From IMG/VR virus record IMGVR_UViG_3300005289_000008, positions 1-45,617 of that record: 45,617 nt of DNA. One strand, 5' to 3'. Both the position numbers and the translations under genes were made by a program. Below, in pieces: positions 19,628-42,283 of this stretch; the stretch's first letter is position 1, and each line of letters starts with the position of its first letter. The stretch is from a virus. A model generated the notes under the pieces. That model saw only the letters and a list, made by a program, of their open reading frames with translations. It was not told the origin of the DNA and did not search any database.

Positions 19628-19655
19628 TTGACTTCAGTGAAACCCCTAGTAGAAT
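19628..19655 (+). promoter_or_regulatory. Promoter 1 with GTGAAACCCC element in its spacer
   Basis: TTGACT (19628..19633), a 16-base spacer, then TAGAAT (19650..19655). The spacer contains TTCAGTGAAACCCC-type sequence. It drives the plus-strand gene at 19697 through a 35-40 base leader with a GAGGCCAAC ribosome region. Confidence 0.85.
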
Positions 19656-19696
19656 AGAACCCATACCAACCACCACCGCCCATCGAGGCCAACACC

Positions 19697-19957
19697 ATGC
19701 AAGCTATCATCACCAAGTATTACGGGCCGACCAACACCAAAGGCGCACGTATCGTCGCCAAGTGTAGCGCAGGCAGTATCAGCCACGGCTATCACAGCTT
19801 TGACGGCAATGTACGTCACGAACAGGATAGGCATCACCTTGTGGCCTGCATGTTGGCTGGTCGGATGGGCTGGAATACTGAGGCTTACGGCAAGATCGTA
19901 TCCGGGCAGTTGCCCAATGGCGACTATGCACATGTGTTCACTGAGGGGAAGCCGTGA
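19697..19957 (+). CDS. Conserved small phage protein, unknown function
   Basis: 86 residues starting MQAIITKYYGPTNTKGARIV. I recognise the opening (MQAI-TKY-GPTNTKG-R) as a family common in many phages of Gram-negative hosts, with no known role. It is the first gene after promoter 1. The leader carries GAGGCCAAC, also found before the gene at 20229. The stop overlaps the next ATG. Confidence 0.85.
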   Translation: MQAIITKYYGPTNTKGARIVAKCSAGSISHGYHSFDGNVRHEQDRHHLVACMLAGRMGWNTEAYGKIVSGQLPNGDYAHVFTEGKP

Positions 19958-20160
19958 TGACACGCACAGAACGTTCCCAGTTCCGGGCCTACTGCAAAGC
20001 TGAGGCCGAACGTTTCGAAGCAGCCAACCCACGTTTCGCCAAAATGATGCGCGAACGCGAAGCCAAACAGGCACGCGCCGCACGCCGGGTCAGGATCGGT
20101 ATCTACATCATCTCGGCAATCGTGATCATCAACACCGTGCAATTTTTCTTCAAATTTTAG
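19957..20160 (+). CDS. Small membrane protein, unknown
   Basis: 67 residues from the ATG at 19957, which has GAGGGG eight bases upstream and overlaps the previous TGA; a GTG one codon earlier is also in frame. The N-terminal two thirds are highly charged and helical (Arg/Glu/Lys/Ala). A single hydrophobic segment near the C-terminus (IGIYIISAIVIINTVQFFF) would anchor it in the inner membrane, with the charged part in the cytoplasm by the positive-inside rule. Function unknown. Confidence 0.75.
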   Translation: MTRTERSQFRAYCKAEAERFEAANPRFAKMMREREAKQARAARRVRIGIYIISAIVIINTVQFFFKF

Positions 20161-20188
20161 TTGCATTCGGTGAAACCCCTGCTAGAAT
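20161..20188 (+). promoter_or_regulatory. Promoter 2 with GTGAAACCCC element in its spacer
   Basis: TTGCAT (20161..20166), 16-base spacer containing TCGGTGAAACCCCTGC, then TAGAAT (20183..20188). It starts immediately after the stop of the upstream gene. Spacing, element and the following leader (CCATACCAACCA ... GAGGCCAAC) nearly duplicate promoter 1. Confidence 0.85.
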
Positions 20189-20228
20189 AGACCCATACCA
20201 ACCAGCCACCGCCAACGAGGCCAACGCA

Positions 20229-20420
20229 ATGAAGATCGCACAAATCCATCGCTCAGGCGCAAAGGTCGCCATAAGCCTGCCCAACGGTGAAACCGTCTAT
20301 CTGACTGCCGGTGACGCCACTCGCATTTCCAACGCACTGCGCGCCGCCGCTGTTGACGTTGAAAAGCGTAGTTTCATCAACTCCGAATTCAGCACCGTTG
20401 AAATTCCACTGAACAAGTAA
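20229..20420 (+). CDS. Small protein of unknown function
   Basis: 63 residues starting MKIAQIHRSGAKVAISLPNG, beta-rich in the first half, followed by a helix. It is the first gene after promoter 2, with GAGGCCAACGCA before the ATG. No motif recognised. The next 101 bases (20421..20521) are non-coding; apart from GC-rich inverted patches I see no promoter in them. Confidence 0.72.
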   Translation: MKIAQIHRSGAKVAISLPNGETVYLTAGDATRISNALRAAAVDVEKRSFINSEFSTVEIPLNK

Positions 20421-20521
20421 CCGACCGGGGACGCCCCAACATGCGGTTATTAAAGTTCGGGGGCCGCGCATCCTACACGCGGACACACAACCAATCGCCA
20501 ACGCCATATAGGGCCACCGCA

Positions 20522-21235
20522 ATGAAAACTTTCGCTGAATTCCTCGCTACCCGCGAACACCATGCAAACAACATCGCCACCGCTTACGGTCAGCCGTGGG
20601 ATGAACTGGGATGCGATAAGCCCGACTCGGGCGGTTACATGTACTGGGACCGCGACGAAGATCAAAACTATGTGATTCTTCAGCGCGAAGGCGAAGACGG
20701 CATCGAATACCATTTCGATTTTGAAAACAGCGACGAACTGCACTACACCCTAGAAGCGGCGGAAGCATCGCTGTATGCCAATGTCTACCACGATGCGCCC
20801 GAGTCGCGGCAGTTGTGGGAAATCCGTAGCACCTTCGGCGAATACGACGACGTTCTGCCCATCGTGCCGGGATTCGTTGATGACAGCTACAGCAACGACG
20901 CTTGCCCGAAACTGACGCTTCAGATTGGCGACTACATCTGCGACCTGTACTGCGACTATCGCAACTACGAATCCCGCGAAATGCCGGGCGGCCCTCAGTT
21001 CGCGCTGACTGTCGGCGACGAAGACCTGTACGAACGCGTGCACAAAGAATCGTTTGATGCGATCCCGGCAGGGCTGGCGCACAAGGTGCTGACCCTGATC
21101 ATGGCCGATTGGTGCCAGCGTCAGGGGCTGAAGCACGAAGACGCAGAAGAAATGATTCTTCGCGACGACCTGACCACCGCACAGCGCACTTTCATCAGCG
21201 ACCTTATCAACGCTTGGGAGTCGGCCGATGTCTAA
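20522..21235 (+). CDS. Acidic protein of unknown function
   Basis: 237 residues from the ATG at 20522 (MKTFAEFLATREHH). An in-frame upstream ATG at 20441 would add a basic stretch that reads through the intergenic leader and is less likely. It is rich in Asp, Glu, Tyr and Trp, with blocks such as 'YMYWDRDEDQNYVILQREGE'. No enzyme motif is visible. The strong negative charge would fit a DNA-mimic or protein-binding role, but that is speculation. The stop overlaps the next start. Confidence 0.75.
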   Translation: MKTFAEFLATREHHANNIATAYGQPWDELGCDKPDSGGYMYWDRDEDQNYVILQREGEDGIEYHFDFENSDELHYTLEAAEASLYANVYHDAPESRQLWEIRSTFGEYDDVLPIVPGFVDDSYSNDACPKLTLQIGDYICDLYCDYRNYESREMPGGPQFALTVGDEDLYERVHKESFDAIPAGLAHKVLTLIMADWCQRQGLKHEDAEEMILRDDLTTAQRTFISDLINAWESADV

Positions 21236-21503
21236 CACCCACGTCCGAAACTTCGAAGAAGCGTTGGTTTTCGCCCGCGAGTGCGACATTGATACGACAC
21301 GGTTGGAGGAAGACGCCGCCGTGATCGTGGGTGAATTCCTGATCGCCAATGCACTGGCTGTCCAGAACTACGACAAAGGTAGCGGCGAAGGTAGCGCCGC
21401 GTTCCGACTCGGGTTGCTGTTGACCGGGATGGAAAACGACTTTGGCGCGTTCGTGAGTCTGAGCGCGCACGCATACCGGGTCGGAAAGGAATACGCATGT
21501 TGA
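21228..21503 (+). CDS. Small protein of unknown function
   Basis: 91 residues starting MSNTHVRNFEEALVFAREC, predicted helical and soluble. It overlaps the genes on both sides by 7-8 bases, so it belongs to one translationally coupled string with them. Not recognised. Confidence 0.7.
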   Translation: MSNTHVRNFEEALVFARECDIDTTRLEEDAAVIVGEFLIANALAVQNYDKGSGEGSAAFRLGLLLTGMENDFGAFVSLSAHAYRVGKEYAC

Positions 21504-21667
21504 TACCCGCCCACGCATTGCCGCTGGCGCTTTCGCTGCTGGCTGAAATGAACGCTGTAGCGAACCCCACTGAAGACCAGCGCCGGTTTATCGGAACGCT
21601 GCGCAAGGCCGCTGGCATCGCCAGTAACAACGCCATCCACAAGTCGAAAAAGGAAGCCACCAAATGA
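21497..21667 (+). CDS. Very small protein of unknown function
   Basis: 56 residues, MLIPAHALPLALSLLAEMNA to the end KKEATK. AAGGAA lies eight bases before the ATG at 21497. The start is within the previous gene's last codons and the TGA at 21665 overlaps the next ATG at 21664. The N-terminal 20 residues are moderately hydrophobic, the C-terminus basic. Not recognised. Confidence 0.65.
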   Translation: MLIPAHALPLALSLLAEMNAVANPTEDQRRFIGTLRKAAGIASNNAIHKSKKEATK

Positions 21668-22209
21668 AGCTGTTCGGAATCTGTCACGCCCAGTCTGCCC
21701 GCAAGCATCGCCGCGCCGGTCATCAGGTACAGGAAAACGGAGACGGCCGGTTCAAGTGGCGGTTGCACCCCCGCACCGTCATTCGGATGGTGAACAGCGG
21801 CCAGCTGTCACCCAGCGTTGCGCGCAGGCTGTACCCCGACCAAAAATTGGTTGCTGCCCGGCATTCGCTGAGTGGGGTGAACCCCACCGCCATCATCGTT
21901 GATGAAACCCACGACGTGCTGAAGCTGTCCGGGCGCATGGTCGAAGTACCGGCCGGGGTGATCGTCGGCGAAATCCACACACCGCATCGCATCGAGATTC
22001 CTACCGAGCAAGGGATGGTCTGTATCAGTGTTGGGGACAGGTACTGGCCGAAGCGACGTAACCAGCACAGCAAGCCCTACCGGGTGTTGGGATTCATGGC
22101 TGGCACGTCGGATGTGATGTTCTGCCGCTGGGCTGAAGGCGAGCCAGTGAAGACCGATTCCATGCCGGTACAGCAGTTCCTGAGCGTCATCGGTAAGCAA
22201 ATCCTGTAG
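21664..22209 (+). CDS. Protein of unknown function, last gene of the plus-strand island
   Basis: 181 residues. A basic N-terminus (MKLFGICHAQSARKHRRAGH) precedes a mixed region with 'VDETHDVLKLSGRMVEVPAG'. The C-terminal part is beta-rich ('MVCISVGDRYWPKRRNQHSKPYRV'). No domain recognised. The stop TAG is part of the first copy of an 11-bp repeat that recurs four more times downstream. Confidence 0.72.
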   Translation: MKLFGICHAQSARKHRRAGHQVQENGDGRFKWRLHPRTVIRMVNSGQLSPSVARRLYPDQKLVAARHSLSGVNPTAIIVDETHDVLKLSGRMVEVPAGVIVGEIHTPHRIEIPTEQGMVCISVGDRYWPKRRNQHSKPYRVLGFMAGTSDVMFCRWAEGEPVKTDSMPVQQFLSVIGKQIL

Positions 22210-22302
22210 CAGAATGAAAAACGGCCCCGGAATCCTGTAGCGGAATCCGGGGCCGAATCGTGTAGCGGAATGAAATTGTGTAGGGGAATCCTGTAGCGGA
22301 AT
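22205..22302. repeat. Five direct copies of TGTAGCGGAAT at a convergent gene junction
   Basis: Copies start at 22205 (TGTAGCAGAAT), 22236, 22261, 22279 (TGTAGGGGAAT) and 22292, separated by 31, 25, 18 and 13 bases. The block fills the gap between the ends of a plus-strand gene and the minus-strand Rz1 gene. One copy is the loop of a terminator hairpin. Confidence 0.9.
22217..22255 (-). terminator. Terminator downstream of the lysis cassette
   Basis: CGGCCCCGGA (22222..22231) pairs perfectly with TCCGGGGCCG (22246..22255) around a 14-base loop. On the minus strand the stem is followed by a T-rich run (TTTTTC, 22221..22216), so it fits rho-independent termination after Rz1. On the plus strand there is no T-run. 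Confidence 0.8.
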
Positions 22303-22589
22303 CAGAACCAGCTGCCGCATTTCCTGGCGGTGTCCCCGTCGAACCACGCGCCGATGCACTCCACTTGGATCGCGCATCGGTCGAAGGCCGACTGCCTAGC
22401 GAGGCTGTTTCTCGCCAAGTCTTTCACGGTTGTCGATGGCACGATCTGCGGCATTTGGCACGGAGCCAGCAGGTTTGCCGGTGGCTTGACCTTTAGCACT
22501 TCCGTTCGCGCCACCGGGGGCGCAGGAGTTGTCGAGCACGCAGCCACCAGCAGGTAGAACGGTAGCCAGTAGAGCGCGGAAGGCCGCAT
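22302..22589 (-). CDS. Rz1-like outer-membrane spanin lipoprotein
   Basis: 95 residues. The signal region MRPSALYWLPFYLLVAAC ends in a lipobox (LVAAC), so Cys18 should be lipidated and anchored in the outer membrane. The proline-containing segment after it (STTPAPPVA) is usual for o-spanins. The gene starts inside the Rz gene in another frame and extends beyond its end. GGAG lies seven bases before the ATG. With Rz it fuses inner and outer membranes in the last step of lysis. It is longer than lambda Rz1 and contains four further cysteines in the C-terminal part. Confidence 0.9.
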   Translation of the reverse strand: MRPSALYWLPFYLLVAACSTTPAPPVARTEVLKVKPPANLLAPCQMPQIVPSTTVKDLARNSLARQSAFDRCAIQVECIGAWFDGDTARKCGSWF

Positions 22590-22887
22590 CGTTTTTCTCC
22601 AGCAGTTCGAGTTTGAGATTAACGCGGGCGTCCCTTTCCGCCAGGCTGTTCAAGTCTTTCGACAGCGATTGCAGCACCAGCGTATCGGATTCGCGAACGT
22701 TCTTCAGCGTTTCGATTGCGGTGGCTTGCGCCGTGTTAGCCTCGATCAGTTCTTTTTGCTTGGTGCGTTCGGTTTCGACTACCAGTTCCAGCTGTTGCGT
22801 GCGAATCCAAGACGCGACACCGAAACCGCCCATCACCAAAAACAGGACGATCAGAAAATACCCGATGTATCGCTTAATCGGATTCAT
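22396..22887 (-). CDS. Rz-like inner-membrane spanin
   Basis: 163 residues with an N-terminal signal-anchor (residues about 8-26, IGYFLIVLFLVMGGFGVASW) and a long coiled coil (about 30-110) that would span the periplasm. The C-terminal 55 residues are Gly/Ala/Asn-rich with two cysteines (CVLDNSC) that could form intermolecular disulfides. It overlaps the holin gene by 14 bases and contains the Rz1 start out of frame, the classic nested spanin arrangement of phages of Gram-negative bacteria. Confidence 0.9.
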   Translation of the reverse strand: MNPIKRYIGYFLIVLFLVMGGFGVASWIRTQQLELVVETERTKQKELIEANTAQATAIETLKNVRESDTLVLQSLSKDLNSLAERDARVNLKLELLEKNDAAFRALLATVLPAGGCVLDNSCAPGGANGSAKGQATGKPAGSVPNAADRAIDNRERLGEKQPR

Positions 22888-23200: not shown

Positions 23201-23215
23201 AGGATCACCCCCGGG

Positions 23216-23776
23216 TTAAGTTGGCGCGAGGATAGCACGCTCCGGGGTCAGCCCCTTCTGCCACTTGGCGTAGACCTTCTGGGCGGCTTCGGCCTTGGTG
23301 ATCTTGCCGTCGTTGTTGACATCCAGCCCGGCATTCTGTCGATACGCCGTGGTGCCACCCGAGAACAGCACCGAATCTTCCGGTTGACCGACGTACTTCG
23401 GCAGCAGGATCGCCATGTACATGTCGGACAGGGTATGCACTCGGTTGCGGTACGGTCGGAAGTATTTTTCAACGTAGTCCAGCTGTTGAACGGCGGTCAT
23501 CGCCGCCAGGGCAGCGGTCGTCGTTCCCAGATCGCGGGCGGTGGCTGGCATGAACTGGATCAGACCGGTAGCACCAGAACCGGCAGCGTTCTTGATCGAT
23601 GGGGAGAATGTCTCACCGCTTTCCCAAGCGATGCACCCCATCAGCCAACTGACATGATCAAAATCCCAGTTGAAATTTCCAGCCATCTGGTACATGCGGG
23701 ACATGAAATTTTGGGGAACTACACGCCCCCACGAAATTTTGCCAAAGCCAAGCGGTGCGGGACATTGTTCGATCAT
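23216..23776 (-). CDS. Endolysin, lysozyme-like, with EF-hand calcium loop
   Basis: 186 residues. 'AWESGETF' with Glu52 followed by 'GSGATGLIQFMPATA' is the active-site region of lysozyme/transglycosylase-like enzymes that cleave peptidoglycan glycan chains. Near the C-terminus residues 152-163 (DVNNDGKITKAE) form a canonical 12-residue EF-hand loop, suggesting calcium-dependent stability or activity. No signal peptide, so it needs the holin encoded just downstream. GGAG precedes the ATG. It lies right after the iteron/AT-rich region. Confidence 0.88.
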   Translation of the reverse strand: MIEQCPAPLGFGKISWGRVVPQNFMSRMYQMAGNFNWDFDHVSWLMGCIAWESGETFSPSIKNAAGSGATGLIQFMPATARDLGTTTAALAAMTAVQQLDYVEKYFRPYRNRVHTLSDMYMAILLPKYVGQPEDSVLFSGGTTAYRQNAGLDVNNDGKITKAEAAQKVYAKWQKGLTPERAILAPT

Positions 23777-23787
23777 CGTAGTTCTCC

Positions 23788-23982
23788 GGTTACGGGTTTG
23801 GGTTACAGGCGGAAAAGTCTGGGCCAGCAGTACAGCAAAAATAAAAAATTTAAAAACGCTCAGTCAAAAAGGGGTGTAACCTGTAACCTGTAACCTTTTT
23901 TAATAAATAATAAATAAAAAAATAAAGGGAATCAACAACTTAGCCCTTCTGGTCAAGGGTTACAGGTTGGGTTACAGGTTGG
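23788..23982. other. Iteron-flanked AT-rich region, candidate replication origin
   Basis: Between the endolysin and primase genes. GGTTACGGG/GGTTACAGG occur at 23788 and 23801; three tandem 7-mers TGTAACC at 23875..23895; two copies of GGTTACAGGTTG at 23958 and 23970. The middle group is inverted relative to the outer groups. Between them, 23896..23928 is almost pure A/T in an otherwise GC-rich genome. Clustered short repeats beside an AT-rich stretch next to the replicative primase-helicase gene is origin-like architecture. No origin activity can be shown here. Confidence 0.6.
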
Positions 23983-23984
23983 CC

Positions 23985-26606
23985 CTACCCGGTTGCAGGA
24001 TGGCGTGTACTGTCCAAAATTTGGCGTACACGCTCCAAATCTTGAACAACGCTGGATTTCGCCCACACACGATGGGCCTGACCGTTCCACTTGATGACTT
24101 TTTCCATCTTTTCGTAGCCCAGACGGGCAAGCATCGCATTCCATGCCGATGATTTCGGAATTTCAGCGCCAGTCGTCAGCGCTCGATTACGCAAAGTTGC
24201 GCTGAGAACTGAAGAACAGAACGCGTCACGGTGGATGCCCACGCCACCATCTTCCAAAATTTGATCCAAAATTTCTTCGGCACTATCACGACTGGTCGCT
24301 GACATACGTGATTTTTCTGGCGTATGTGGCGCCCGTCCGTTGGGATTGAATTGCGACAGATCGATAGCGCACAGCCACTGACGCCACTGCCCGGGGTTGG
24401 CCCGGCAGCTTTCGGCGATGCCGCCAAAGTACACGGGAAGTTCGTCAGGCGACGACAATCCCCTATCGCGCACAGCGTCCCAGATGTCGCTGTTCGGACT
24501 GATCACAACCATCCAACGCCGATCACCAACATCCAGCGGTAGCGCATCATTGAAGTTGGTCAGCGCCAGGTGATTGGTCACGTTCGGCAACTGGCCGTCA
24601 GTCTTGCCCTTGAAATTGAGATTGATGTAGTCCGACTCTACGAACATCTTCATGCGTTCAAGCAGTTCGTATCGCATGGCACCATGCAGGCGAATTTCTT
24701 CGATGATGTTGACGCAGTATCCGGTTGCCCAGTCGGTGAAGCCGCCTGCGTTTTTCATAACGCTAGTATCGGTGATGCGGATGTTCGCCATCCCCATCGC
24801 AGCACGCAGCACGGCACCTATGATCGACTTACCGTCGCCCTGCACACCCTTGATCAGCGGTGACCAACGAATCTTCTTCCCCGGGAACTGCACATTGAAC
24901 GCCAACCACTGAATGACGTGGTTGTACACATCCTGGCGGCGGTTGCACAGCAGGAACAGGTGTTCGTTGAACCGCGAAATCATCCGCACCGTTTCATCGG
25001 TGTACGCTTCGAACTCCGGCAACGATGTGCGGCGGAAGGTGTTCACGTAGGTCTTACCTGCCCAGTCGAAATACTGGGGTTGCAGGGGATGGTACATGCG
25101 ATCATCAACGATCATCACGTTCCATCGCTGGAAGGCCCATTCGCTGGGAACTTCGCGCTTGCTGCTGTTCGGTTTCATCGGCATCAGCTTGGCCCACTCG
25201 CCATTGAATGCCATCACCGAACCTTCGCTGGTCGTCTCGCAGTTGTAGAACGTCTCGGTCTTCTTGATGAAACAATGCTGCTGCATCCACAGCGGCGCTT
25301 CACCGACATGTGCCGACTGTACCGGGGGAGAAAGCAGGGTACGCAGCTGACCGATCGGCATCTTTGCATCGAAGAAATCCAGCTTCTTATTCACTGCCTG
25401 CGCGATGCGTTCAACGAACACACGGCTCACGCCTGCGGATTGAACCTTGGGGATGATGTCGTTGAAGATCGCTTCATACGTTCCGCACGCTGCGATGTCG
25501 TTCAACAACAGCCCAACCTTTTCGGTCATTTCTGGACTGATGACAGTGACCGCAGTATCAGCACCACCGCCCGATCCATAGCTGTCGGTGATGATCTGCA
25601 TCCCGCCGATGGCCTGCCCGATCACTTCCGCCAGGGGATTCTGTTGCGGCTCGACATACACGCGCTCGCAGCTGGCACAGGCGTTGTTGATCGTCAGTTG
25701 ACGCAGGTACGTGCGGTGCACATCCCATTTCTCGCGGTACATACCGCTACGGCGCATCAGCCGTTCGATACGATCACCATCACAGCCGGTCCAGAACGCA
25801 AGATGTGCGGCCAGTGCCATATCGTTGTCGTTGGTATGCTCGGCATCACCGGCCCACAACTGCGGCAGGGATGCACGGCCACCGAACGCAGCACCGGCAC
25901 CCATACGCGCACCAAGGAACCGCGCGATCAGTTCGTCATCGTCTTCCGGGCCACGCCACTCGGGACGACGTTCGCTGGAACCTTCCTTTTTCTCGCTATA
26001 GGGGAAGAACTCATGGATCAGCGAAGTGGTGTCATGCACGCTGTCGGCGCAACCTGTGGCCTGAGCCAGTGCGAAACCGAACGCGATGCCGCGACCTTCG
26101 TTGTAGAATTCCAACTTCAGCGGCGCCAGATACTGCGCGGTCTGCTTGGGCGGTTTCGTGCGATGCGGGGCCACGGGGCCACTACCGATAACGTGCAGGC
26201 CACGCCAGGACGAAGAGTATTCGACCATCGCGCCGGGGAAACGCTGCACCAACTCGGTGGCCTTCGGCAGCATCACACCGTTCTGCACGGCGTCATCCAG
26301 ATCGAAGAACCACAGACCACATTCGGCAGTCAGGAAGAATCCGAGCGTGTACGTCAGATGGCCCGGCGTGGGATTTCTGACGGGCGGGTGCTTCGTCCAC
26401 AACTCTTGCAATGCGTTCACCGCAGCGCTGTAGGTGTTCCAGTTCTCCGGGTCAGCATGATCGAGATTGGCTTTCTCGCCGTTGCGCTTGAACCGGTCAT
26501 CGCGCAGCGCGCAGGGTTTCTTCAGGTACTTCTGTTCTTCGGCATCCCATGTCATGCGCCAAATGAACCATTGCGGGATCGCCGCCATCTTGCCCAGTAC
26601 ACTCAT
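23985..26606 (-). CDS. Replicative primase-helicase (AEP-like primase plus SF3 helicase)
   Basis: 873 residues from the ATG at 26606 (GGGGA five bases upstream); an in-frame TTG at 26618 is the alternative. 'WFFDLDDA' (Asp102, Asp104) and 'SSWRGLHVIG' resemble the metal-binding and histidine motifs of archaeo-eukaryotic primases. A helicase domain has Walker A 'GVQGDGKS' at about residue 585, Walker B-like 'VNIIEEI', and a sensor block 'ALTNFNDALPLDVGDRRW', as in SF3/DUF5906 proteins. It should melt and prime the origin. The candidate origin lies directly after its stop. A cysteine pair occurs in the linker (CASC). Confidence 0.88.
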   Translation of the reverse strand: MSVLGKMAAIPQWFIWRMTWDAEEQKYLKKPCALRDDRFKRNGEKANLDHADPENWNTYSAAVNALQELWTKHPPVRNPTPGHLTYTLGFFLTAECGLWFFDLDDAVQNGVMLPKATELVQRFPGAMVEYSSSWRGLHVIGSGPVAPHRTKPPKQTAQYLAPLKLEFYNEGRGIAFGFALAQATGCADSVHDTTSLIHEFFPYSEKKEGSSERRPEWRGPEDDDELIARFLGARMGAGAAFGGRASLPQLWAGDAEHTNDNDMALAAHLAFWTGCDGDRIERLMRRSGMYREKWDVHRTYLRQLTINNACASCERVYVEPQQNPLAEVIGQAIGGMQIITDSYGSGGGADTAVTVISPEMTEKVGLLLNDIAACGTYEAIFNDIIPKVQSAGVSRVFVERIAQAVNKKLDFFDAKMPIGQLRTLLSPPVQSAHVGEAPLWMQQHCFIKKTETFYNCETTSEGSVMAFNGEWAKLMPMKPNSSKREVPSEWAFQRWNVMIVDDRMYHPLQPQYFDWAGKTYVNTFRRTSLPEFEAYTDETVRMISRFNEHLFLLCNRRQDVYNHVIQWLAFNVQFPGKKIRWSPLIKGVQGDGKSIIGAVLRAAMGMANIRITDTSVMKNAGGFTDWATGYCVNIIEEIRLHGAMRYELLERMKMFVESDYINLNFKGKTDGQLPNVTNHLALTNFNDALPLDVGDRRWMVVISPNSDIWDAVRDRGLSSPDELPVYFGGIAESCRANPGQWRQWLCAIDLSQFNPNGRAPHTPEKSRMSATSRDSAEEILDQILEDGGVGIHRDAFCSSVLSATLRNRALTTGAEIPKSSAWNAMLARLGYEKMEKVIKWNGQAHRVWAKSSVVQDLERVRQILDSTRHPATG

Positions 26607-28334: not shown

Positions 28335-29206
28335 TACTGGCCCAGCCCTTCGATCACCGCGCGGGTGGTGGCGATGCGGGTGTTGCATTCGATGACATCT
28401 TCGCGGTGACGCTCGGCAGCAGCCAGTGCTTCACGACGTTCTTCGATCAGTTCTTCTTTACGTTCCTGCGCCGTTTCGATGACCCGTTCCAGATAGGCGC
28501 GGTACTCGGCCTTGGTGAACATGGACAGGCGAACGGCTTCGTTGCGAAGCAGCCCGGACATGTGTTCGGTACTGTGCAGAACGTGGGTCTGCCGATCCGA
28601 ACGATACCAGCGTTCGCCCGGCACCTTGCGTTCCCACGTCTCGCCGCCCTGGCGGACGATCTTGCGCACCGCATCCAGCATCTGTACGTCCGGCCCGGTA
28701 ACCATCAGCATGGCTTCGACAACGCCATCAGCGCCGATGCACATACCGGTGATCTGGCCGTTGCTGAGGTTCAGTGCGTACAGCGCGGATTCGCCATAAG
28801 CGATGGTGCTGTTGACCTGTTCCGCACCCGGGTGCGCGGCGGACGCCTTGACGACGCAGGTTTCGGCAACACCGGAAATTTTGCCGCCAGCGGTACGCGT
28901 TTCAGCGTTTGCGACGGCATCGGCGAACGCCTTGGCGATACGATCTTCGATTTCAGGAAGGATGCTATCCACGTCGATGTTGATGTTGATGGTTTCGGTC
29001 TTCGGTGCCGATACCAGCGCGTAGACGTTGATCACACGCCAGCCGTTGCCCAGCAGCTGGTGCAGCGATTCCTGATCGATCTTGTCCTTGCGGTCTTCGC
29101 CTTCGCGCTGAAGGGTCAGCATGGTGTCATCGACGCGCTGCACGATCACGGCGGTGTTGGTGTTCGGCGGCAGGATGCGGAAGTGACGGAAGTTGCTGAT
29201 GTTCAT
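28334..29206 (-). CDS. Protein of unknown function, 290 residues
   Basis: Begins MNISNFRHFRILPPNTNTAV. The N-terminal half is alpha/beta with no recognised motif. The C-terminal part (about 225-285) is a charged coiled coil rich in Glu, Arg and Ala. It overlaps the neighbours by 1 and 4 bases, so it is part of one coupled operon. Possibly structural or nucleic-acid associated; no family recognised. Confidence 0.78.
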   Translation of the reverse strand: MNISNFRHFRILPPNTNTAVIVQRVDDTMLTLQREGEDRKDKIDQESLHQLLGNGWRVINVYALVSAPKTETININIDVDSILPEIEDRIAKAFADAVANAETRTAGGKISGVAETCVVKASAAHPGAEQVNSTIAYGESALYALNLSNGQITGMCIGADGVVEAMLMVTGPDVQMLDAVRKIVRQGGETWERKVPGERWYRSDRQTHVLHSTEHMSGLLRNEAVRLSMFTKAEYRAYLERVIETAQERKEELIEERREALAAAERHREDVIECNTRIATTRAVIEGLGQ

Positions 29207-29484
29207 GCTGCGGTTTCCTTGTCCAGTTGGGTGGTGTCACGATTCTGAAGAGTAATCAGTTTCTTCGTCCACGCGCTGTACTCTTCTTTCAGGTCGTGGA
29301 GACGTTGGATGTTCTCGGCGTGCTTCCAGCACTCGGGAACGGTATACGGGTCGAACTTCTTGGCCTGATAGTGATCCATCAGGTGCGTGATCGCTGCGAT
29401 TTCACCTTTGCACTGCGCGATCTTGTGCGCCAGGTCGTCACGGCAGTCGTGCCGCCGCAGAAGTTTGTTGATCCACTTACGCAC
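29203..29484 (-). CDS. Small helical protein, unknown
   Basis: 93 residues with a basic N-terminus (MRKWINKLLRRHDCRDD) and a long helical, probably coiled-coil remainder. It overlaps both neighbours. No motif recognised. Confidence 0.72.
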   Translation of the reverse strand: MRKWINKLLRRHDCRDDLAHKIAQCKGEIAAITHLMDHYQAKKFDPYTVPECWKHAENIQRLHDLKEEYSAWTKKLITLQNRDTTQLDKETAA

Positions 29485-29941
29485 GGTTGCGCTCCCTTTT
29501 GATTATTTCACGGATTCTGTTGATGCGGCTTTGCGCGTCGAACACCAGTGAGTTATCGGCTGCGCGTTCGATTTCATCCAGCAGTGCCAGATACATTTCG
29601 CGCACCTTCTGCACATACACGCTGCCGTCTGCCAGTTCTTCGGCCACCATGTCGATCATGCCGCCGATGGTATAGCCGTTCTGATCTTCCAGCGTGCTGT
29701 TGTACTTGGCGATACCCTTCGCACGCTGGGCGCGGGCCACGTCAGTTGCAGCGCGGATCAGTCGGCCTTCTGGGTCACGCACGCTGGCCGACAGCGGGCT
29801 TGCGATGTACTCGACCGCCAACCGGCCATCGCCGAAACAATAGTTGCAGCCAACGGTGATGACACTGTTGTCCATCGGGTCAACACCCTGCACTTTTCCT
29901 GCGCCGTTGCACACTCCGCACTCTTCGTATCGGATGGCCAT
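29477..29941 (-). CDS. DnaJ-type zinc finger fused to an all-alpha NTP-pyrophosphohydrolase-like domain
   Basis: 154 residues from the ATG at 29941 (GGAAG seven bases upstream). The N-terminus has two CxxCxGxG-type knuckles, 'CGVCNGAG' and 'CNYCFGDG', as in the DnaJ zinc finger. The second half has 'KYNSTLEDQNG' followed by 'AEELADGSVYVQK', which resembles the EExxD metal site of MazG-like pyrophosphohydrolases. Such enzymes remove unwanted nucleotides. The activity is inferred from one short motif and needs structural support. A second ATG five codons upstream is possible. Confidence 0.65.
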   Translation of the reverse strand: MAIRYEECGVCNGAGKVQGVDPMDNSVITVGCNYCFGDGRLAVEYIASPLSASVRDPEGRLIRAATDVARAQRAKGIAKYNSTLEDQNGYTIGGMIDMVAEELADGSVYVQKVREMYLALLDEIERAADNSLVFDAQSRINRIREIIKRERNRA

Positions 29942-29942
29942 A

Positions 29943-30164
29943 TCAGCGCTTCCCACGCACGGCTAGTTCGTCTTCGCGCACCCACTGCCCGTTCTGCTGG
30001 ACGTAGCACTGGGCACCGACGTACTTCGTTTCACGGTTGGTTTCGCGACTAAGGTTGTCGCACTGCCAGCGCTCGGTGCCGAACTGCAGTCCGCACATGG
30101 CGACTACCAGCAGGATGCTGATTGCGAGCATGGTCAGAAAGGGGTGACGTTCAAGGAAGTCCAT
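29943..30164 (-). CDS. Small single-pass membrane protein
   Basis: 73 residues. A short N-terminus (MDFLERHP) precedes one hydrophobic segment (about 9-27), followed by a polar domain with two cysteines (Cys35, Cys53) that could form a periplasmic disulfide. It is the first gene behind the strong minus-strand promoter at 30194..30222. A role in host-membrane take-over or superinfection exclusion is possible but not shown. Confidence 0.72.
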   Translation of the reverse strand: MDFLERHPFLTMLAISILLVVAMCGLQFGTERWQCDNLSRETNRETKYVGAQCYVQQNGQWVREDELAVRGKR

Positions 30165-30193
30165 GATGTGTTCCTGGCGGGTTGATGGGTATC

Positions 30194-30222
30194 ACTTTAA
30201 GTTCAGTGAAACCCCTTGTCAA
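30194..30222 (-). promoter_or_regulatory. Strong minus-strand promoter with inverted GTGAAACCCC element in the spacer
   Basis: On the minus strand TTGACA (30222..30217), 17-base spacer AGGGGTTTCACTGAACT, then TAAAGT (30199..30194). The -35 is consensus. The element is in the opposite orientation relative to promoters 1 and 2. It lies directly after a terminator and should drive 30164 and the genes below it. Confidence 0.85.
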
Positions 30223-30224: not shown

Positions 30225-30250
30225 TAAAAAAGCCCCGGACTAGCCGGGGC
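30225..30250 (-). terminator. Rho-independent terminator
   Basis: GCCCCGG/CCGGGGC 7-bp stem with loop CTAGT, followed on the minus strand by TTTTTT. It ends the transcript of the HTH/H1-tail gene block, immediately before the promoter at 30222. Confidence 0.9.
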
Positions 30251-30273: not shown

Positions 30274-30816
30274 TCACAGCTTCGGGAGTGCGGGCAGTTC
30301 CGGCAGCGGCGGGGTCTTGGTCTGGAAGCGCTTGTTGGTCGGGGCTTTCTTGACGACCTTGCGCGACGGGGCGCCCTTCTTCGGGTCAGCGGGCTTCGCG
30401 GGCGATGCGACGCGCTTCGTGGTCGAGGCAGGCTTTGTACCACCGGCAGCGGGGCGGGCGGCCTTCTTCGGTGCCGACTTTTTTGCAGCGGTAGCCTTCT
30501 TCGCTGCAATCAGCTTCTTCGCACGCGGTTTGGCTGCGGCAGTGCCGGTGGCCTTGCGTGCGCGCAGTTCAGCGCCCTTGCGCTCGATGGTGGCACCGGC
30601 TGGTTCGCTCAGGCCGAGCTTCTTCATGGTCTTCTTGATACCGGCCTGCAGTTCAGCCTTGCCGCCGACGTGCTTGCCCACCAGCGGGTCGCTGACGTTG
30701 TGCTTTTCGGCGATGGCGCGACGGGTGACGTTCACGATGCCGATCTTTGCCGCCAGGGTGGCGCCGGTCTTGAAGAACTCTTCGGCGCGGGACGGAACTG
30801 CTTTCTTGGTAGCCAT
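30274..30816 (-). CDS. TetR-like HTH protein with histone-H1-like Lys/Ala tail
   Basis: 180 residues. Residues about 12-66 look like a TetR-family DNA-binding domain; the helix-turn-helix is 'VTRRAIAEKHNVSDPLVGKHV' split at residues 30-50 followed by GGKAEL. No TetR ligand domain follows. Residues about 75-165 are instead Lys/Ala/Pro-rich, like histone H1 or AlgP-type tails, and the C-terminus is a Pro/Leu motif (PPLPELPALPKL). It may be a sequence-specific binder with a DNA-coating tail. It could be the factor that reads the GTGAAACCCC elements, but that is only a guess. It overlaps the VRR-NUC stop (TAATG). Confidence 0.75.
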   Translation of the reverse strand: MATKKAVPSRAEEFFKTGATLAAKIGIVNVTRRAIAEKHNVSDPLVGKHVGGKAELQAGIKKTMKKLGLSEPAGATIERKGAELRARKATGTAAAKPRAKKLIAAKKATAAKKSAPKKAARPAAGGTKPASTTKRVASPAKPADPKKGAPSRKVVKKAPTNKRFQTKTPPLPELPALPKL

Positions 30817-32411: not shown

Positions 32412-32434
32412 TGGGGTTTCTCCGAGTTGTGGTT

Positions 32435-34129
32435 TCACTGTAGCGTGGTGGAAGCCATGTGGTCAAGAATGCGCAGCCGCAGGGCTTCCGCTTCTGGGCC
32501 GGGCAAGGTCTGGGCAGTCAGCATGTCCACGTTGTAGCGGTAGTAGAACTCGCGCATCGCCTTCTGGGGGTTCTCCGACTGCATGATGAAACGCAGCAGC
32601 CCCGCCAGGTTCTGGTGAATCTCTTTCCGTTCGCGGTGGTTCTTTTTGATCGAATTGGCAACGATGCCACTTCCGTACACCACAGGTTCGGTGTGGATTT
32701 CCTCGATCTTTTCGAACATGGCCGCCAGCATTTCCGGCGTGTAGAGCGTAATGTCGCCGTCCACTTCCTGCGGTCCCTTCGGTGCTACAGGTGGCGGTGG
32801 CACAGTGCCACACCACGGACAGCACGGCTCGGTGCGCATGTATGGTTGCAGGCACAAGTCGTTGGTGCACACGCGCAGCGGGATCGCATCGCTGGCCCGG
32901 CTGCGACGATCAACATCATCCAGTGTCCATGCGCGCGGCATGTCAGGCGGACCACCGAAGTGCAGCAGGTTACCAACATGGTCGTGGATGTACGCGATGG
33001 GTTTTTCCGATTCGCTGATGAACTTTTTGCGTTGCCATTCGGGGTAGTCGTCCCACGTCTGTGCAAGCAGATCACTGATCATCAGACGAAGCGCACGCCC
33101 GAACTGCTGCGAGTACAGGGAGAACGATGCGGTCGGCCTGGCGAACATCACCACTTCGATGGCAGGAAGATCGAAGCCTTCGCCGAACAGATCGACGTTC
33201 ACCAGTACCTTCAGTTCTCGCCGCGCAAACGCCTTCAGCAACTTGTCGCGGGCGATACCATCTGTGCTGTCGTCAGCGCTGATGTACGCTGCTGCGAAAC
33301 CCCGGCGATTGAATTCGTCGGTGATCTTCTTTGCATGTTCAACGTCCACCGCGAAGACGATACCCAGCATGTTCGGCGTGTGCCGTGCGTAGGTATCCAC
33401 TACGTCGCCAACGATCTTGTTGCTGCGTTTCACTGCGGCGCGTAGCTGATCGACGTTGTAGTCACCAGTCGCCGAAGAAATCTGCACGTCAGCCAGATCA
33501 AGATCGGACGGCAGCGGTGCACGAATGCGATATGGCGTCAGGTATCCCCATTCGATCAGCTGACGCATGGATGGACCGACAACCATCGCATCGACCAGAC
33601 CCGACGCATGGCGACCCAGACCCTTACCGTCAGCGCGGCATGGTGTTGCAGTCGGCAGCATCCAGTACGCGTTCGGGAACAACTGCACACCACGCCCCCA
33701 CTTGTTTTCAGCGAGAACGTGATGCCCTTCGTCCATGAAACCCATCGTGATCAGGTGTGACCAGTTGCTGATGTCACGACGCAGCAACGTATCGATACCG
33801 GCAACGTGCCACTTCGCCCGGGGGTTATAGAACATCTTCCCCTTGAACCGGTCCATGTGTTCTTCAGTGATCACCTTGACGACGTTTTTCGGCGCCATGA
33901 TGTTGTGTTGCAGCCCCTCTTTCGCCAGGGCGACGCTGATCTGCCCGACCAGTTCGCTGCGGTGTGCGCACGCCAAGCCGTGGCCCGGGTTGTACTTCGC
34001 GCTGTCACCCATGATCACCGTTTTACCGGCACCGGTCGGACAGACCGGCATCACGACGCGGTGGCCTTGCCCCCATGCGTCAAATACGCCGCGCTGCACA
34101 TCGCGCTGGAATCCGCGTAGGTTTGCCAT
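32435..34129 (-). CDS. SF2 DEAD/DEAH-type helicase
   Basis: 564 residues. Walker A 'PTGAGKT' (31-37), Walker B/motif II 'DEGHH' (133-137), motif III 'TATPCR' (160-165) and motif VI 'QQFGRALR' (341-348) define an SF2 helicase of the SSL2/RecQ-like phage type. Cys421, Cys426, Cys437 and Cys440 form a probable zinc finger after the helicase core. It likely remodels replication or recombination intermediates with the VRR-NUC nuclease. The C-terminal 120 residues are helical without recognised domain. Confidence 0.93.
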   Translation of the reverse strand: MANLRGFQRDVQRGVFDAWGQGHRVVMPVCPTGAGKTVIMGDSAKYNPGHGLACAHRSELVGQISVALAKEGLQHNIMAPKNVVKVITEEHMDRFKGKMFYNPRAKWHVAGIDTLLRRDISNWSHLITMGFMDEGHHVLAENKWGRGVQLFPNAYWMLPTATPCRADGKGLGRHASGLVDAMVVGPSMRQLIEWGYLTPYRIRAPLPSDLDLADVQISSATGDYNVDQLRAAVKRSNKIVGDVVDTYARHTPNMLGIVFAVDVEHAKKITDEFNRRGFAAAYISADDSTDGIARDKLLKAFARRELKVLVNVDLFGEGFDLPAIEVVMFARPTASFSLYSQQFGRALRLMISDLLAQTWDDYPEWQRKKFISESEKPIAYIHDHVGNLLHFGGPPDMPRAWTLDDVDRRSRASDAIPLRVCTNDLCLQPYMRTEPCCPWCGTVPPPPVAPKGPQEVDGDITLYTPEMLAAMFEKIEEIHTEPVVYGSGIVANSIKKNHRERKEIHQNLAGLLRFIMQSENPQKAMREFYYRYNVDMLTAQTLPGPEAEALRLRILDHMASTTLQ

Positions 34130-34770: not shown

Positions 34771-34903
34771 CAGGGTGTTCCTGTCTTGGTTGGGGGTTTC
34801 ACTGTACCACGAAAAAGTTGTTGCAATCGGTGAAACCCCCTGCTAGGCTTCTTCCATCGCCCCGGAGTGGGGCGGTATCCAACCACAACCTATAGGTGTC
34901 GCA
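34771..34903. promoter_or_regulatory. Divergent early promoter region with two GTGAAACCCC elements
   Basis: Rightward: TTGCAA (34821..34826), 17-base spacer TCGGTGAAACCCCCTGC, TAGGCT (34844..34849). Leftward: the element occurs on the minus strand (TACAGTGAAACCCCC, 34806..34792); a -10-like TACAGT overlaps it but no good -35 is seen. The rightward leader ends with GGTGTCGCA before the ATG at 34904. This is the main switch between the two replication arms. Confidence 0.75.
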
Positions 34904-37673: not shown

Positions 37674-37682
37674 TCCAACCTG

Positions 37683-37709
37683 CGGGGCGTTCTTCGGAGC
37701 GCCCCGTTT
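37683..37709 (+). terminator. UUCG-tetraloop hairpin after the DUF2815 gene
   Basis: CGGGGCGTTC pairs with GAGCGCCCCG (one G-U pair) around the stable TTCG tetraloop, followed by TTT only. It starts ten bases after the stop codon. Probably a partial terminator or mRNA stabiliser, as genes continue downstream in the same direction. Confidence 0.72.
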
Positions 37710-37724
37710 CACCGAGGGTATGAC

Positions 37725-38323: not shown

Positions 38324-38324
38324 C

Positions 38325-38873: not shown

Positions 38874-39034
38874 ACCGCGACGAAAAGATCGCACACGTCC
38901 TGCGCTGCATGGCCGGTGACAAGGGTATTCCGCTTCCGTTGGCAGACCTGAAACGTGTGGTCGAGAACGCCGCAGCGGCGGTCGATGAAAAATGGCCGGA
39001 CCTGAAGCCAACTACCCCACCGGGTGCAGAATGA
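38870..39034 (+). CDS. Very small protein between two coupled genes
   Basis: 54 residues, MNRDEKIAHVLRCMAGDKGI to the end PPGAE. The ATG overlaps the previous TGA and its own TGA overlaps the DNA polymerase ATG (ATGA), which argues that it is translated and couples polymerase expression. Helical, no motif. Confidence 0.7.
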   Translation: MNRDEKIAHVLRCMAGDKGIPLPLADLKRVVENAAAAVDEKWPDLKPTTPPGAE

Positions 39035-41157
39035 AACGGCCCGCTGCTGGTGTTGACGTTGAATGCTTCGAAAACTGGTTCTTGATCGGTATCACTTGCG
39101 CTGTCACACGCCAGCGCTGGGACTACCACATGGTGCCGGGTACGCAGCTGGACGTTGCCAGCGTGCGGGCGTTGCTGCAGCACTTCCAGATGATCACCTT
39201 CAACGGCGGCCACTACGATGAAATGATGGTGGTGGCCGCCCTGGCGGGATGGGACAACGCGCAACTGAAGATGTTGAACGACACCATCATCAAGTCAGGG
39301 AAACCCGACTGGATGATCCGCAGCGATTTCAAGTTGTGGCGGCCGGACTACATCGATCACATTGACGTGATGTCAGTGATCCCGGGCATCCCGATCAGCC
39401 TGAAGATGAACGCTGCACGCCTGCATGTTCTGAAGATGCAGGATAGCCCCGTGTCGTTCGAAGAACCCATCCCGTTCCACATGATCGGCGAAGAAACCGA
39501 ATACTGTGGTAACGACCGCGAAGTCACGATCCAGCTGTTCAATGTGCTGCAGCCACGCATTGCGCTGCGCGAAGGTCTGACTGCGCGATACGGCGTTGAC
39601 CTGCGTAGCAAGTCGGATGCCCAGATCGCAGAAAAGGCAATCGAAGCCGAATGGATTCAGCGTATGCAAGCCAGCATGGATCGCTGGATGACGTACAGCG
39701 AAGAAGCACAGACCCAGTACATGGTCGCGCTCAATGACCGCCTGCGTGTCGATCCCGGCTTCCATTCCAAATCGTTCCCGCACCTGACGCAGCGCTACGA
39801 AAAGGACTGGAAGGGTCGCATCAAGGTCGTCAAGCGCATCATCCCACATGGCTACACGTTCAACTACGATCCGCCCGAGTACATCAGTTTCATCACGCCC
39901 CAGCTGCAGGACATCTTCACTCAGGTAAAGCAGCAGACGTTCTTTGTGTCCAACAAGGAACAGGCGGTGCAGCTGGGTGCCAACCCGGAAGAGAAAATTA
40001 AGACGGGCGTAGTGATGCCCGACTACCTGAAGAAGCTGGTGATCCCGATTGGTGATAGCCGGTATAAGCTGGGTATCGGTGGCCTGCATAGTCAGGAATC
40101 CAACGTCGCGCACAAGACCGTTCCTGGCGTGTGGACGATGCGCACGGCTGACGTGACCAGCTACTACCCGTCGCTGATCATCAAGCTGCGGCTGATCCCC
40201 GATGCGCTGGGTCCGCTGTTCGCTGAAATTTACGAAGACTTCTACAAAGAACGTCTGGACGCGAAGGCACGCGCCAAGCAGCTGGCGAAGATTGCCGGGC
40301 TGTCTGCGGAAGAAGAAGCGCTGCTTGCGGAACTGCTAACTACCGAAGGCGGCCTGAAGATTGTGCTTAACGGCACGTTCGGCAAGCTGTGGTCGTGCCA
40401 CTCGATCTTCTTCGCACCGGAACACGGCGTGCACATCACCATGACCGGCCAGCTGTGCCTGTTGATGCTGATCGAGCGCCTGCACTTGGCGGGCATCATG
40501 GTGGTATCGGCGAACACTGACGGTATCGAAATGAAAATCCCGCACGGGCTGGAAGGCGTGTGCGACATGATCATCAAGTGGTGGGAGAACGCCACCGGCC
40601 TGAACATGGAAATGGAAGACTACCTGGCGTTGTACTCGCGCGACGTGAACAACTACATCCGCGTAAACGGCGACGGCTCGGTGAAACGCAAGGGGACGTA
40701 TCGCAGCAGCGGTGTCATGGAAAACAAGACGCCGAAGTACGACATCTGCGCCGACGCGGTGGTGGAGTTCCTGAAGTCTGGGAAGCCGGTCGCCACTACG
40801 ATCAGCGAATGTCGTGACATCAGGAAGTTTGTCGAAGCACGCAAGGCTGGTAACGCCGGGTACTACAGCACGCCGCAGAACCCGGTGATCGCAAAGAAGA
40901 TCGAGAACGGCGACAAGTCAGAATCGGTCTACGAAAGCGGCGGTGTGTTCCTTGGTAAAGCGGTGCGCTGGTACATCGGCAACGGCCGCCAGGGCTGCTA
41001 CATCGCCAATCACAAGGGTCAGCAGGTGGCCGGTACGGAAGGTTGCGTACCGTGCATGTTGTTGCCTGCAGACTTCCCCAGAGATGTGAACATTCAGTTT
41101 TACATCGACACCGCCGAATTGATGTTGGAAGAAATCGGTTTCGGCATTCCATTCTGA
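39031..41157 (+). CDS. DNA polymerase, B-family-like, with 3'-5' exonuclease
   Basis: 708 residues from the ATG at 39031. Exonuclease motifs: 'GVDVE' (Asp9, Glu11), 'FNGGHYDE' (57-64) and 'YCGNDREVT' (158-166). 'GIGGLHS' resembles the YxGG/A motif. Polymerase motif A is 'ADVTSYYPSL' (Asp374), motif B 'KIVLNGTFGK' (Lys443), and motif C 'SANTDGI', where a typical YxDTDS is reduced to NTDG with Asp497. It should be the replicative polymerase. No A-family motifs are present. The N-terminal 13 codons of a longer frame belong to the overlapping small gene. Confidence 0.9.
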   Translation: MKRPAAGVDVECFENWFLIGITCAVTRQRWDYHMVPGTQLDVASVRALLQHFQMITFNGGHYDEMMVVAALAGWDNAQLKMLNDTIIKSGKPDWMIRSDFKLWRPDYIDHIDVMSVIPGIPISLKMNAARLHVLKMQDSPVSFEEPIPFHMIGEETEYCGNDREVTIQLFNVLQPRIALREGLTARYGVDLRSKSDAQIAEKAIEAEWIQRMQASMDRWMTYSEEAQTQYMVALNDRLRVDPGFHSKSFPHLTQRYEKDWKGRIKVVKRIIPHGYTFNYDPPEYISFITPQLQDIFTQVKQQTFFVSNKEQAVQLGANPEEKIKTGVVMPDYLKKLVIPIGDSRYKLGIGGLHSQESNVAHKTVPGVWTMRTADVTSYYPSLIIKLRLIPDALGPLFAEIYEDFYKERLDAKARAKQLAKIAGLSAEEEALLAELLTTEGGLKIVLNGTFGKLWSCHSIFFAPEHGVHITMTGQLCLLMLIERLHLAGIMVVSANTDGIEMKIPHGLEGVCDMIIKWWENATGLNMEMEDYLALYSRDVNNYIRVNGDGSVKRKGTYRSSGVMENKTPKYDICADAVVEFLKSGKPVATTISECRDIRKFVEARKAGNAGYYSTPQNPVIAKKIENGDKSESVYESGGVFLGKAVRWYIGNGRQGCYIANHKGQQVAGTEGCVPCMLLPADFPRDVNIQFYIDTAELMLEEIGFGIPF

Positions 41158-41164
41158 GGCGACA

Positions 41165-41479
41165 ATGAAAATCATCTGGAAGTACGTTCTACCTGACAAC
41201 TTCGTGGTGGACAAAAACACTGACGCAGTGATCGAAATGCCCAGCGGCTCGCGCATCGTGCACGTCGAAATACTGGAAGACGGTCGCACCGTGATCTGGG
41301 TCGAGTTCGCTGTTCCGCACGACTGGAACGGCAAGGCCAACATGCGAAAGAACTTCTTCCGGCGCACGGGTACTGGACATGGTGCGCCGGATCGTTTCCA
41401 CCACTTCCATTCGTTCGTGAGCGACAGTGGCACGTTCGTGTGGCACCTGTATAGGTTCGAAGACGATGCAACTGCCTGA
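41165..41479 (+). CDS. DUF7352-like phage protein
   Basis: 104 residues. 'WKYVLP', 'VIEMPSGSRIVHVEI', 'TGTGHG' and 'GTFVWHLYRFE' match the pattern of a widespread small phage protein (DUF7352-like) of unknown function. It follows the DNA polymerase by seven bases and overlaps the next gene. Confidence 0.75.
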   Translation: MKIIWKYVLPDNFVVDKNTDAVIEMPSGSRIVHVEILEDGRTVIWVEFAVPHDWNGKANMRKNFFRRTGTGHGAPDRFHHFHSFVSDSGTFVWHLYRFEDDATA

Positions 41480-41723
41480 ACTTACCGGCGACGAACACGC
41501 CCTACTGGCCGCGCTGCTGACGCGTGAAATTCTGCGGCAGCGTGAATCGGAAAAGCTCGACATGAACAAGCGAGTACCGGACTACGACGCTGCACGTTCC
41601 GCCGCCAGGTTGGCGGTGCGACTGCAGGCCATTCTGAGAAAAGTCAATGCAGCTGCCACCGCTACCCAACCTGCCGCTTCTGCCGCCACTCCCAGTTCTT
41701 CCGAAGTACGACCCGGACGCTGA
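41466..41723 (+). CDS. Small protein of unknown function
   Basis: 85 residues from the ATG at 41466 (MQLPELTGDEHALLAALL). The first 60 residues are helical; the last 25 are Ala/Thr/Ser/Pro-rich and are encoded by DNA shared with the next gene in another frame. Not recognised. Confidence 0.7.
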   Translation: MQLPELTGDEHALLAALLTREILRQRESEKLDMNKRVPDYDAARSAARLAVRLQAILRKVNAAATATQPAASAATPSSSEVRPGR

Positions 41724-41862
41724 CGAAGGAGGTTTCACCCACGTACAGAAGAAAGGTCGCGACGACGCGCTGCTGCGTGTAGGCGACAAGCTGGCACACC
41801 TAACCCGAGCCGACTGCTACAGACTGATCGGCCAACTTGAAAGAGTCGCAAGGAGACTGTGA
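41647..41862 (+). CDS. Small protein with N-terminal Pro/Leu repeat
   Basis: 71 residues starting MQLPPLPNLPLLPPLPVLPK, then a helical basic domain. The first 77 bases overlap the preceding gene in a different frame. Ribosome site weak (GAAAAG). The Pro/Leu start resembles the tails of four other proteins of this phage, which argues that the frame is real. Confidence 0.65.
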   Translation: MQLPPLPNLPLLPPLPVLPKYDPDADEGGFTHVQKKGRDDALLRVGDKLAHLTRADCYRLIGQLERVARRL

Positions 41863-41863
41863 T

Positions 41864-42229
41864 ATGCGCAACGTAACCGTGTACGAAAACAAAGACGTGG
41901 TGATGGATGGCCAACTGGTCAAAAAGGTTCTGAGTGTCACCGCACCGACGCTGGAAGAACCCATCGCACGCATCGAACTCCACATCGACGGTGCGCTGAC
42001 GTTCACCCCGGAGAAATACACGCCGCCCCCGGTGATGCCGACTGCCGCGCCGGAACCGGCGATACGTTCGACGGACGTGTGGCATCTGCATCTGGAGGGT
42101 TACATCGACTACGACACGTACAAAAAGATCATGGGGTATTACTTCCCTAACCATGCCCAGATGAAACCACGCGTAGCAGCGGCTAGCGTGCCTCCTCCGC
42201 CAGCACCCCCTACTGGTGGCAACTGGTAA
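41864..42229 (+). CDS. Protein of unknown function
   Basis: 121 residues from the ATG at 41864, eight bases after AAGGAG. Beta-rich N-terminal half, then a helical region, and a Pro-rich C-terminus (VPPPPAPPTGGNW). The longer frame from 41837 is not needed. It is the last gene before a terminator. Confidence 0.73.
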   Translation: MRNVTVYENKDVVMDGQLVKKVLSVTAPTLEEPIARIELHIDGALTFTPEKYTPPPVMPTAAPEPAIRSTDVWHLHLEGYIDYDTYKKIMGYYFPNHAQMKPRVAAASVPPPPAPPTGGNW

Positions 42230-42233
42230 AAAG

Positions 42234-42265
42234 AAACCCCCGGCCTTGTTCCGGGGGTTTTTCTT
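42234..42265 (+). terminator. Rho-independent terminator after the rightward arm
   Basis: AAACCCCCGG pairs with CCGGGGGTTT around a seven-base loop CCTTGTT, followed by TTTC. It ends the rightward replication operon. A promoter-like TTGTTC (-35, 42246..42251) is embedded in it. Confidence 0.85.
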
Positions 42266-42283
42266 TGGTAAAGTGAAACCCCA
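42246..42283 (+). promoter_or_regulatory. Putative promoter overlapping the GTGAAACCCC element; possible leaderless start
   Basis: TTGTTC (42246..42251), 17-base spacer, TAAAGT (42269..42274), the same -10 as at 30194. TAAAGTGAAACCCC runs directly to the ATG at 42283, so a start site about seven bases after the -10 would fall at or next to the ATG. No Shine-Dalgarno is seen. Confidence 0.5.

Follow-up and report, generated by a model that had tools for sequence, protein, structure and literature searches.

What use does a virulent phage make of a short sequence that recurs in the promoters of its early genes? The question is raised by IMG/VR virus record IMGVR_UViG_3300005289_000008, 45,617 nucleotides long and analysed here in full (the window), in which the 10-base element GTGAAACCCC lies in promoter after promoter. 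The virus is a virulent siphophage of Stenotrophomonas, and its closest relative is Stenotrophomonas phage Silvanus (MZ326867), which is deposited in the opposite orientation and is about 84% identical in aligned blocks and 80% identical in the whole-genome alignment. The results below establish GTGAAACCCC as a real, conserved and phage-specific regulatory element, and it is very probably an operator. Our preferred explanation, which we regard as probable, is that it is bound by a TetR-like repressor of the phage that shuts off early transcription with negative feedback.

Exact copies of GTGAAACCCC were found at six intergenic places in the window (19637+, 20170+, 30206+, 34802- [34793-34802], 34830+ and 42273+), each at a promoter. 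These are the six places listed in the original prediction, which missed a seventh site at 32429-32438 on the minus strand (GTGAAACCAC), where one base is changed in the window and Silvanus has exact GTGAAACCCC. A single exact copy, at 13180-, is within a gene, and it has no exact match in Silvanus. Of the seven exact copies, six therefore fall in non-coding DNA, although by an estimate based on open reading frames this makes up only ~7% of the window (binomial, 6e-7), so that the element is not equally common inside genes. When up to one mismatch was allowed, the window contained 15 matches, compared with 3.4 expected from shuffles.

Comparison with Silvanus gave the same picture. The exact 10-mer is present in both genomes at six aligned places of the whole-genome alignment, whereas for 200 permuted 10-mers with the same base composition the number of conserved copies averaged 0.01 and never exceeded 1. 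All seven exact copies in Silvanus are at counterparts of window sites. At the divergent pair 34802/34830, the flanks match Silvanus at only 16-18 of 30 positions when compared position by position, partly because of a one-base indel, whereas the core matches at 10 of 10. A spacer-type promoter containing the element was absent from 84,980 bacterial and archaeal genomes, in a search whose pattern covered only TTC[AG] forms and excluded -10-type sites.

The promoters are of the sigma70 type, and the element takes up two kinds of position within them. At four sites it lies in the spacer between the -35 and -10 boxes. The site at 19637-19646 (+) is in the spacer of TTGACT-16-TAGAAT (19628-19655, +), the promoter that precedes the gene at 19697, and that at 20170-20179 (+) is in the spacer of TTGCAT-16-TAGAAT (20161-20188, +), a promoter similar to the 19628 unit in sequence and leader, as if one had been duplicated from the other. 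The site at 34830-34839 (+) is in the spacer of TTGCAA-17-TAGGCT (34821-34849, +). The fourth, at 30206-30215 (+), is in the spacer of TTGACA-17-TAAAGT on the minus strand (30222-30194) and is thus inverted relative to its promoter, as had been noted from the sequence at the outset. Over the -10 box and start of this promoter lies a degenerate second copy, GTGATACCCA (30186-30195, -), with two mismatches but identical in Silvanus; it forms an inverted pair with the 30206 site, with 10 bases between them.

At the other three sites, the element begins in the -10 box and runs over the expected start. The variant site at 32429-32438 (-) begins in the -10 of TTGACC-18-TACAGT (32466-32437, -), directly after the helicase gene; that at 34793-34802 (-) begins in the extended -10 TGGTACAGT (34809-34801, -); and that at 42273-42282 (+) begins in the -10 of TTGTTC-17-TAAAGT (42246-42274, +). 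The six exact sites described here are all kept in Silvanus. The original prediction of four spacer sites was thus right as to place, but its general form for their boxes, TTGACx/TAnAxT, does not describe all of them (TTGACT, TTGCAT, TTGCAA and TTGACA, and TAGGCT as one of the -10 boxes), and the remaining sites, with -10 boxes of the TACAGT/TAAAGT type, cover the start rather than fill a spacer.

Two observations concern the surroundings of individual sites. At 42269-42285, the -10 box, the core of the element and the ATG at 42283 are contiguous (TAAAGTGAAACCCCATG), in an arrangement nearly identical to that of Silvanus (TAGAGTGAAACCCCATG), so that the 42283 gene would be transcribed almost without a leader. 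In Silvanus, the HNH gene as annotated (45210-45608; window 19300-19716, -) extends over the 19637-type site, owing to an upstream start that is doubtful; the likely ATG is just left of 19628, with the conserved start MKLQKIPN, which leaves the promoter non-coding.

When transcription units were mapped onto the window by way of the Silvanus genes, the sites were found at the starts of all recognised early and middle units, in keeping with the original prediction of an operator-like multi-site element in their promoters. Two element promoters serve the small-gene block from 19697. The 30222- promoter heads the leftward primase/methylase operon from 30164. The 34802- promoter starts the leftward helicase operon, which runs from 34770, has the internal site after the helicase gene and ends with a helix-turn-helix (HTH) gene at 30274-30816 (-); a terminator-like hairpin after that gene (30232-30250, -) parts the operon from the 30222 promoter. 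The divergent 34821+ promoter starts the rightward operon from 34904, which encodes RecT-annotated, exonuclease, single-stranded DNA-binding and DNA polymerase proteins, and the single gene at 42283 has an element promoter of its own. No consensus promoter was found in the structural region, window 1-19600.

The original prediction had also described the core as a near-palindrome. This did not hold, because the proposed sequence TTCAGTGAA is not conserved. Across 14 sites, the core is invariant in nine of its ten columns (2.0 bits) and is the same at 13 of 14 in the remaining one, whereas columns -4 to -1 before the core reach only 1.0-1.4 bits, a variability partly explained by the left bases doubling as -10 boxes at three sites. 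With the right ten bases nearly invariant and the left arm variable, the site is asymmetric.

The candidate regulator is the product of the HTH gene at 30274-30816 (-), a protein of 180 aa with an N-terminal TetR-like HTH (residues about 2-62) and a Lys/Ala/Pro-rich, histone-H1-like tail that is of low complexity and variable. The HTH end is 90.5% identical in Silvanus (gp44), and in both phages, as in most of the relatives described below, the gene lies between the helicase and primase genes. Although the match to phrog_8723 was weak (E=0.007), comparison by hhalign with a profile of TetR-type phage proteins gave 93.9% (E=1.6e-7, 61 columns), indicating a TetR-type HTH related to members of that family. 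B2 gp14 was left out of the profile because it matches phrog_8723 by hidden Markov model (HMM) but has no blastp match to the set. As a control, 61 proteins of the phage were compared with the TetR-type set; only the 30274-30816 protein matched (91.8%), and the next value was 0.9%. The suggestion that the phage has no recognisable repressor is therefore probably wrong. Searches of Pfam, NCBIfam and PDB sequences with this protein were empty or at noise level.

Most of the relatives examined that carry the gene also have repeated elements in their promoters, of different sequence. A phrog_8723-type gene related by blastp is present in the helicase-primase region of Psp6, SppYZU01, Scuro, PEAT2, MSW-3, JD001, R9Y1 and PD0307; Vibrio phage 367.14, which has no annotation to place the gene, and SFCi1 have one as well, and B2 gp14 matches by HMM. 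The dyad TTGAC-N6-GTCA, whose left arm is the -35 box, was counted 23 times in PEAT2, 16 in MSW-3, 18 in JD001 and 5 in Scuro, compared with 0-4 when the arms were spaced differently; palindromes enter these numbers from both strands, and some of the copies are inside genes. In Scuro, JD001 and PEAT2, a copy is found directly upstream of the gene for the TetR-type protein. Three SFCi1 promoters have GTTACGTAAC over the -10 box, Psp6 has three AAATCATAATTTACGA-like sites and B2 has two copies of TTGACATTTTTGTAAG. ACTT-N9-AAGT over -10 boxes is common to PD0307 and 367.14, whose recognition helices share LTPPA. Seurat, which did not match the TetR-type set by blastp, contained no comparable dyad. 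Phage 9g was dropped as a TetR-free control, since its 81-aa gp36 is annotated 'TetR' despite having no blastp match to the set, and Seurat is thus the only clean control.

The repeated operator-like elements inside sigma70-type promoters, the helicase-primase location of the gene and the related HTH are thus shared between the window and the phrog_8723/TetR-type systems of Jedunavirus, Yokohamavirus, Peatvirus and related phages. The two differ in that the relatives' elements are palindromic (mostly TTGAC-N6-GTCAA on the -35), whereas that of the window is asymmetric and is also found on the -10 and start, and in that the window protein no longer has the C-terminal block, through loss or replacement, and has acquired the H1-like tail. 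In PEAT2, MSW-3 and JD001, many of the palindromes are on -35 boxes, including those of promoters among structural genes.

Taken together, we infer the following sequence of events. GTGAAACCCC would be the operator of a regulon spanning all recognised early and middle units. On DNA entry, host RNA polymerase would start from the element promoters; a phage regulator produced from one of these units, most likely the TetR-like 30274-30816 protein, would then bind the element and block the polymerase, because the site lies between the -35 and -10 or across the -10 and start. The HTH operon itself would start at two element promoters (34802- and 32438-), and the position of the HTH gene at the end of this element-controlled operon would make the negative feedback a delayed one, giving an early burst followed by shut-off. 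The variable position and orientation of the element over the core promoter suggest steric blocking rather than an activator with fixed geometry. The 'temporal switch' first proposed for the element is plausible. A reading of the element as an RNA-level, nut- or put-like signal was rejected because it is upstream of or at the start sites.

Several results weigh against this explanation. TetR-type proteins normally bind palindromes, and the element is asymmetric across the 14 sites. The C-terminal block of phrog_8723 (IAQGL...AK.AP..LR.RA) is absent from the 30274-30816 protein, the alignment stopping at residue 62, and neither this protein nor its Silvanus homologue reaches the 24-bit cut-off of Pfam TetR_N (PF00440), compared with 39.6 bits for the Scuro protein and 43.9 for that of SppYZU01. 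A single-sequence structure model was weak (predicted local distance difference test score [pLDDT] 72, predicted template modelling score [pTM] 0.29) and insufficient for a fold search. In R9Y1 and SppYZU01, which have the gene, no convincing promoter element was found, and 9g has a repeated GTATAATAC yet no blastp match to the TetR-type set. Finally, the exact element is known from two independent genomes only. Neither the helicase nor the HTH domain retrieved confirmed relatives from viral contigs, the HTH domain had no match in genome contigs, and a scan of viral contigs for the promoter pattern gave two matches, both unrelated. The major capsid protein retrieved a piece of this phage itself (G001), a distant relative (G002) that lacks the early region in which the element would be sought, and other, uninformative fragments. 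As a speculation, the H1-like tail may supply non-specific DNA affinity.

The asymmetry also bears on a rival explanation, in which GTGAAACCCC is the operator of an early regulon but the regulator is another phage protein, for example that encoded at 21664-22209 or an unrecognised small early protein. An asymmetric site is ill-suited to a TetR-type dimer, the 21664-22209 protein has a faint HTH_17 match (E=0.17), and many of the small early proteins match no family. That HTH_17 match is at noise level, however, and the 30274-30816 protein is alone in matching a DNA-binding family common to relatives with promoter-embedded elements, so we consider another regulator unlikely.

Because some of the boxes are weak (TTGCAT, TTGCAA and TAGGCT) and the 34802 promoter lacks a -35 at the proper distance, the element could instead be an activator site or phage promoter determinant of middle promoters, like the MotA boxes of phage T4. 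Its varied placement, in a spacer, inverted in a spacer or over the -10 and start, ill fits the fixed contacts of an activator, and the 19628 and 30222 promoters already match the consensus at 10 of 12 positions, which makes activation improbable. The sigma70 type of the promoters would also accommodate a transcription factor of the host, either exploited by the phage or acting to its detriment. Against this stand the absence of the spacer-type arrangement, in the TTC[AG] forms searched and leaving aside -10-type sites, from the 84,980 bacterial and archaeal genomes, and the relatives in other hosts, which pair different elements with a phage regulator; we judge a host factor decidedly improbable. 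That the copies are merely duplicated promoter cassettes or chance words is scarcely credible, since, although the 19628 and 20161 promoters share their leader beyond the element, the remaining sites share nothing beyond it, the 10-mer is conserved at 10 of 10 positions despite differing flanks, and one site has the opposite orientation to its promoter.

The regulatory scheme proposed here, a TetR-like repressor acting on GTGAAACCCC, has partial counterparts elsewhere. In early repressors of the lambda Cro type, a phage protein likewise turns down early promoters in lytic growth, but the HTH family is different, the operators are symmetric and clustered at two promoters, and the phage is temperate. 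The immunity repressor of cluster A mycobacteriophages (L5/TipsytheTRex) binds operators and stoperators, asymmetric 13-base sites that a monomer reads with two DNA-binding domains (PMC9283540). A short asymmetric phage-wide site at early promoters and a phage-encoded HTH regulator are common to L5 and the window. The L5-type sites number more than 20, include some in short intergenic spaces off promoters, are oriented with transcription and serve lysogeny, whereas the seven main sites of the window are all at promoters and in mixed orientation, with the 30206 site inverted; where the L5 repressor has its second DNA-binding domain, the window protein has a basic low-complexity tail. No PF00589 match was found in the window, in a search limited to this tyrosine integrase family and not extended to serine integrases; this agrees with the original description of a phage without an integrase and sets the window apart from temperate-phage immunity systems.

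In mode of action alone, the scheme can be likened to ArdK of plasmids R388 and pKM101, a KorA-family protein that reads TTGACA repeats (PMC9723621). As proposed for the window, ArdK is a small repressor that acts on several units (five genes in R388) through a repeated element over their sigma70 core boxes, and it tolerates both direct and inverted arrangements. Its regulon gives a burst and then shut-off while the incoming element establishes, and delayed negative feedback, or transcriptional overshooting, has been modelled and measured in the R388 network that contains it (PMC3937220, PMC9723621).

Some further features were noted during the analysis. The second gene after the 30222- promoter (29477-29956, -) weakly matches antitermination proteins of the Q-like type (phrog_6060, E=4e-4) in its zinc-finger-like part; the gene is a possible late-gene activator. 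Directly after the primase gene, AACCTGTAACC occurs four times (23840-23990; five times in Silvanus, 40855-40978), flanking an AT-rich stretch, an arrangement that resembles an iteron-containing replication origin. The window lacks a counterpart of the Silvanus endolysin (gp57) and seems to carry a different lysis enzyme at 23216-23776 (-) in an otherwise conserved lysis cassette. In Acinetobacter phage Scuro, a gene beside the capsid gene contains 11 head-to-tail copies of a 30-base unit (4941-5241, -), and Alteromonas phage R9Y1 has GTAACGTT repeats with palindromes near its primase gene (29013-29164), a probable origin.

The repressor-operator theme is already known from phages; in the searched literature, with most subscription journals outside its reach, we found no description of such a system or of equivalents across a broad lineage. 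We tentatively suggest that a phrog_8723 TetR-like repressor may run a timed global early shut-off across a virulent lineage, from Jedunavirus-type to Silvanus-type phages, through operators in host-type core promoters. Repressor and operator would co-diverge rapidly, and recognition would have passed from palindromic to asymmetric in the Silvanus branch, where the H1-like tail may add non-specific binding. If true, this would give a function to a family that about 90 phage records, many from Klebsiella phages, list only as unknown or 'TetR', and would mean that virulent phages without lysogeny can hold a genome-wide repressor-operator circuit. Early-gene shut-off would become testable from sequence, and the rapid change of operators among relatives would provide a natural series for the co-evolution of a repressor and its site.

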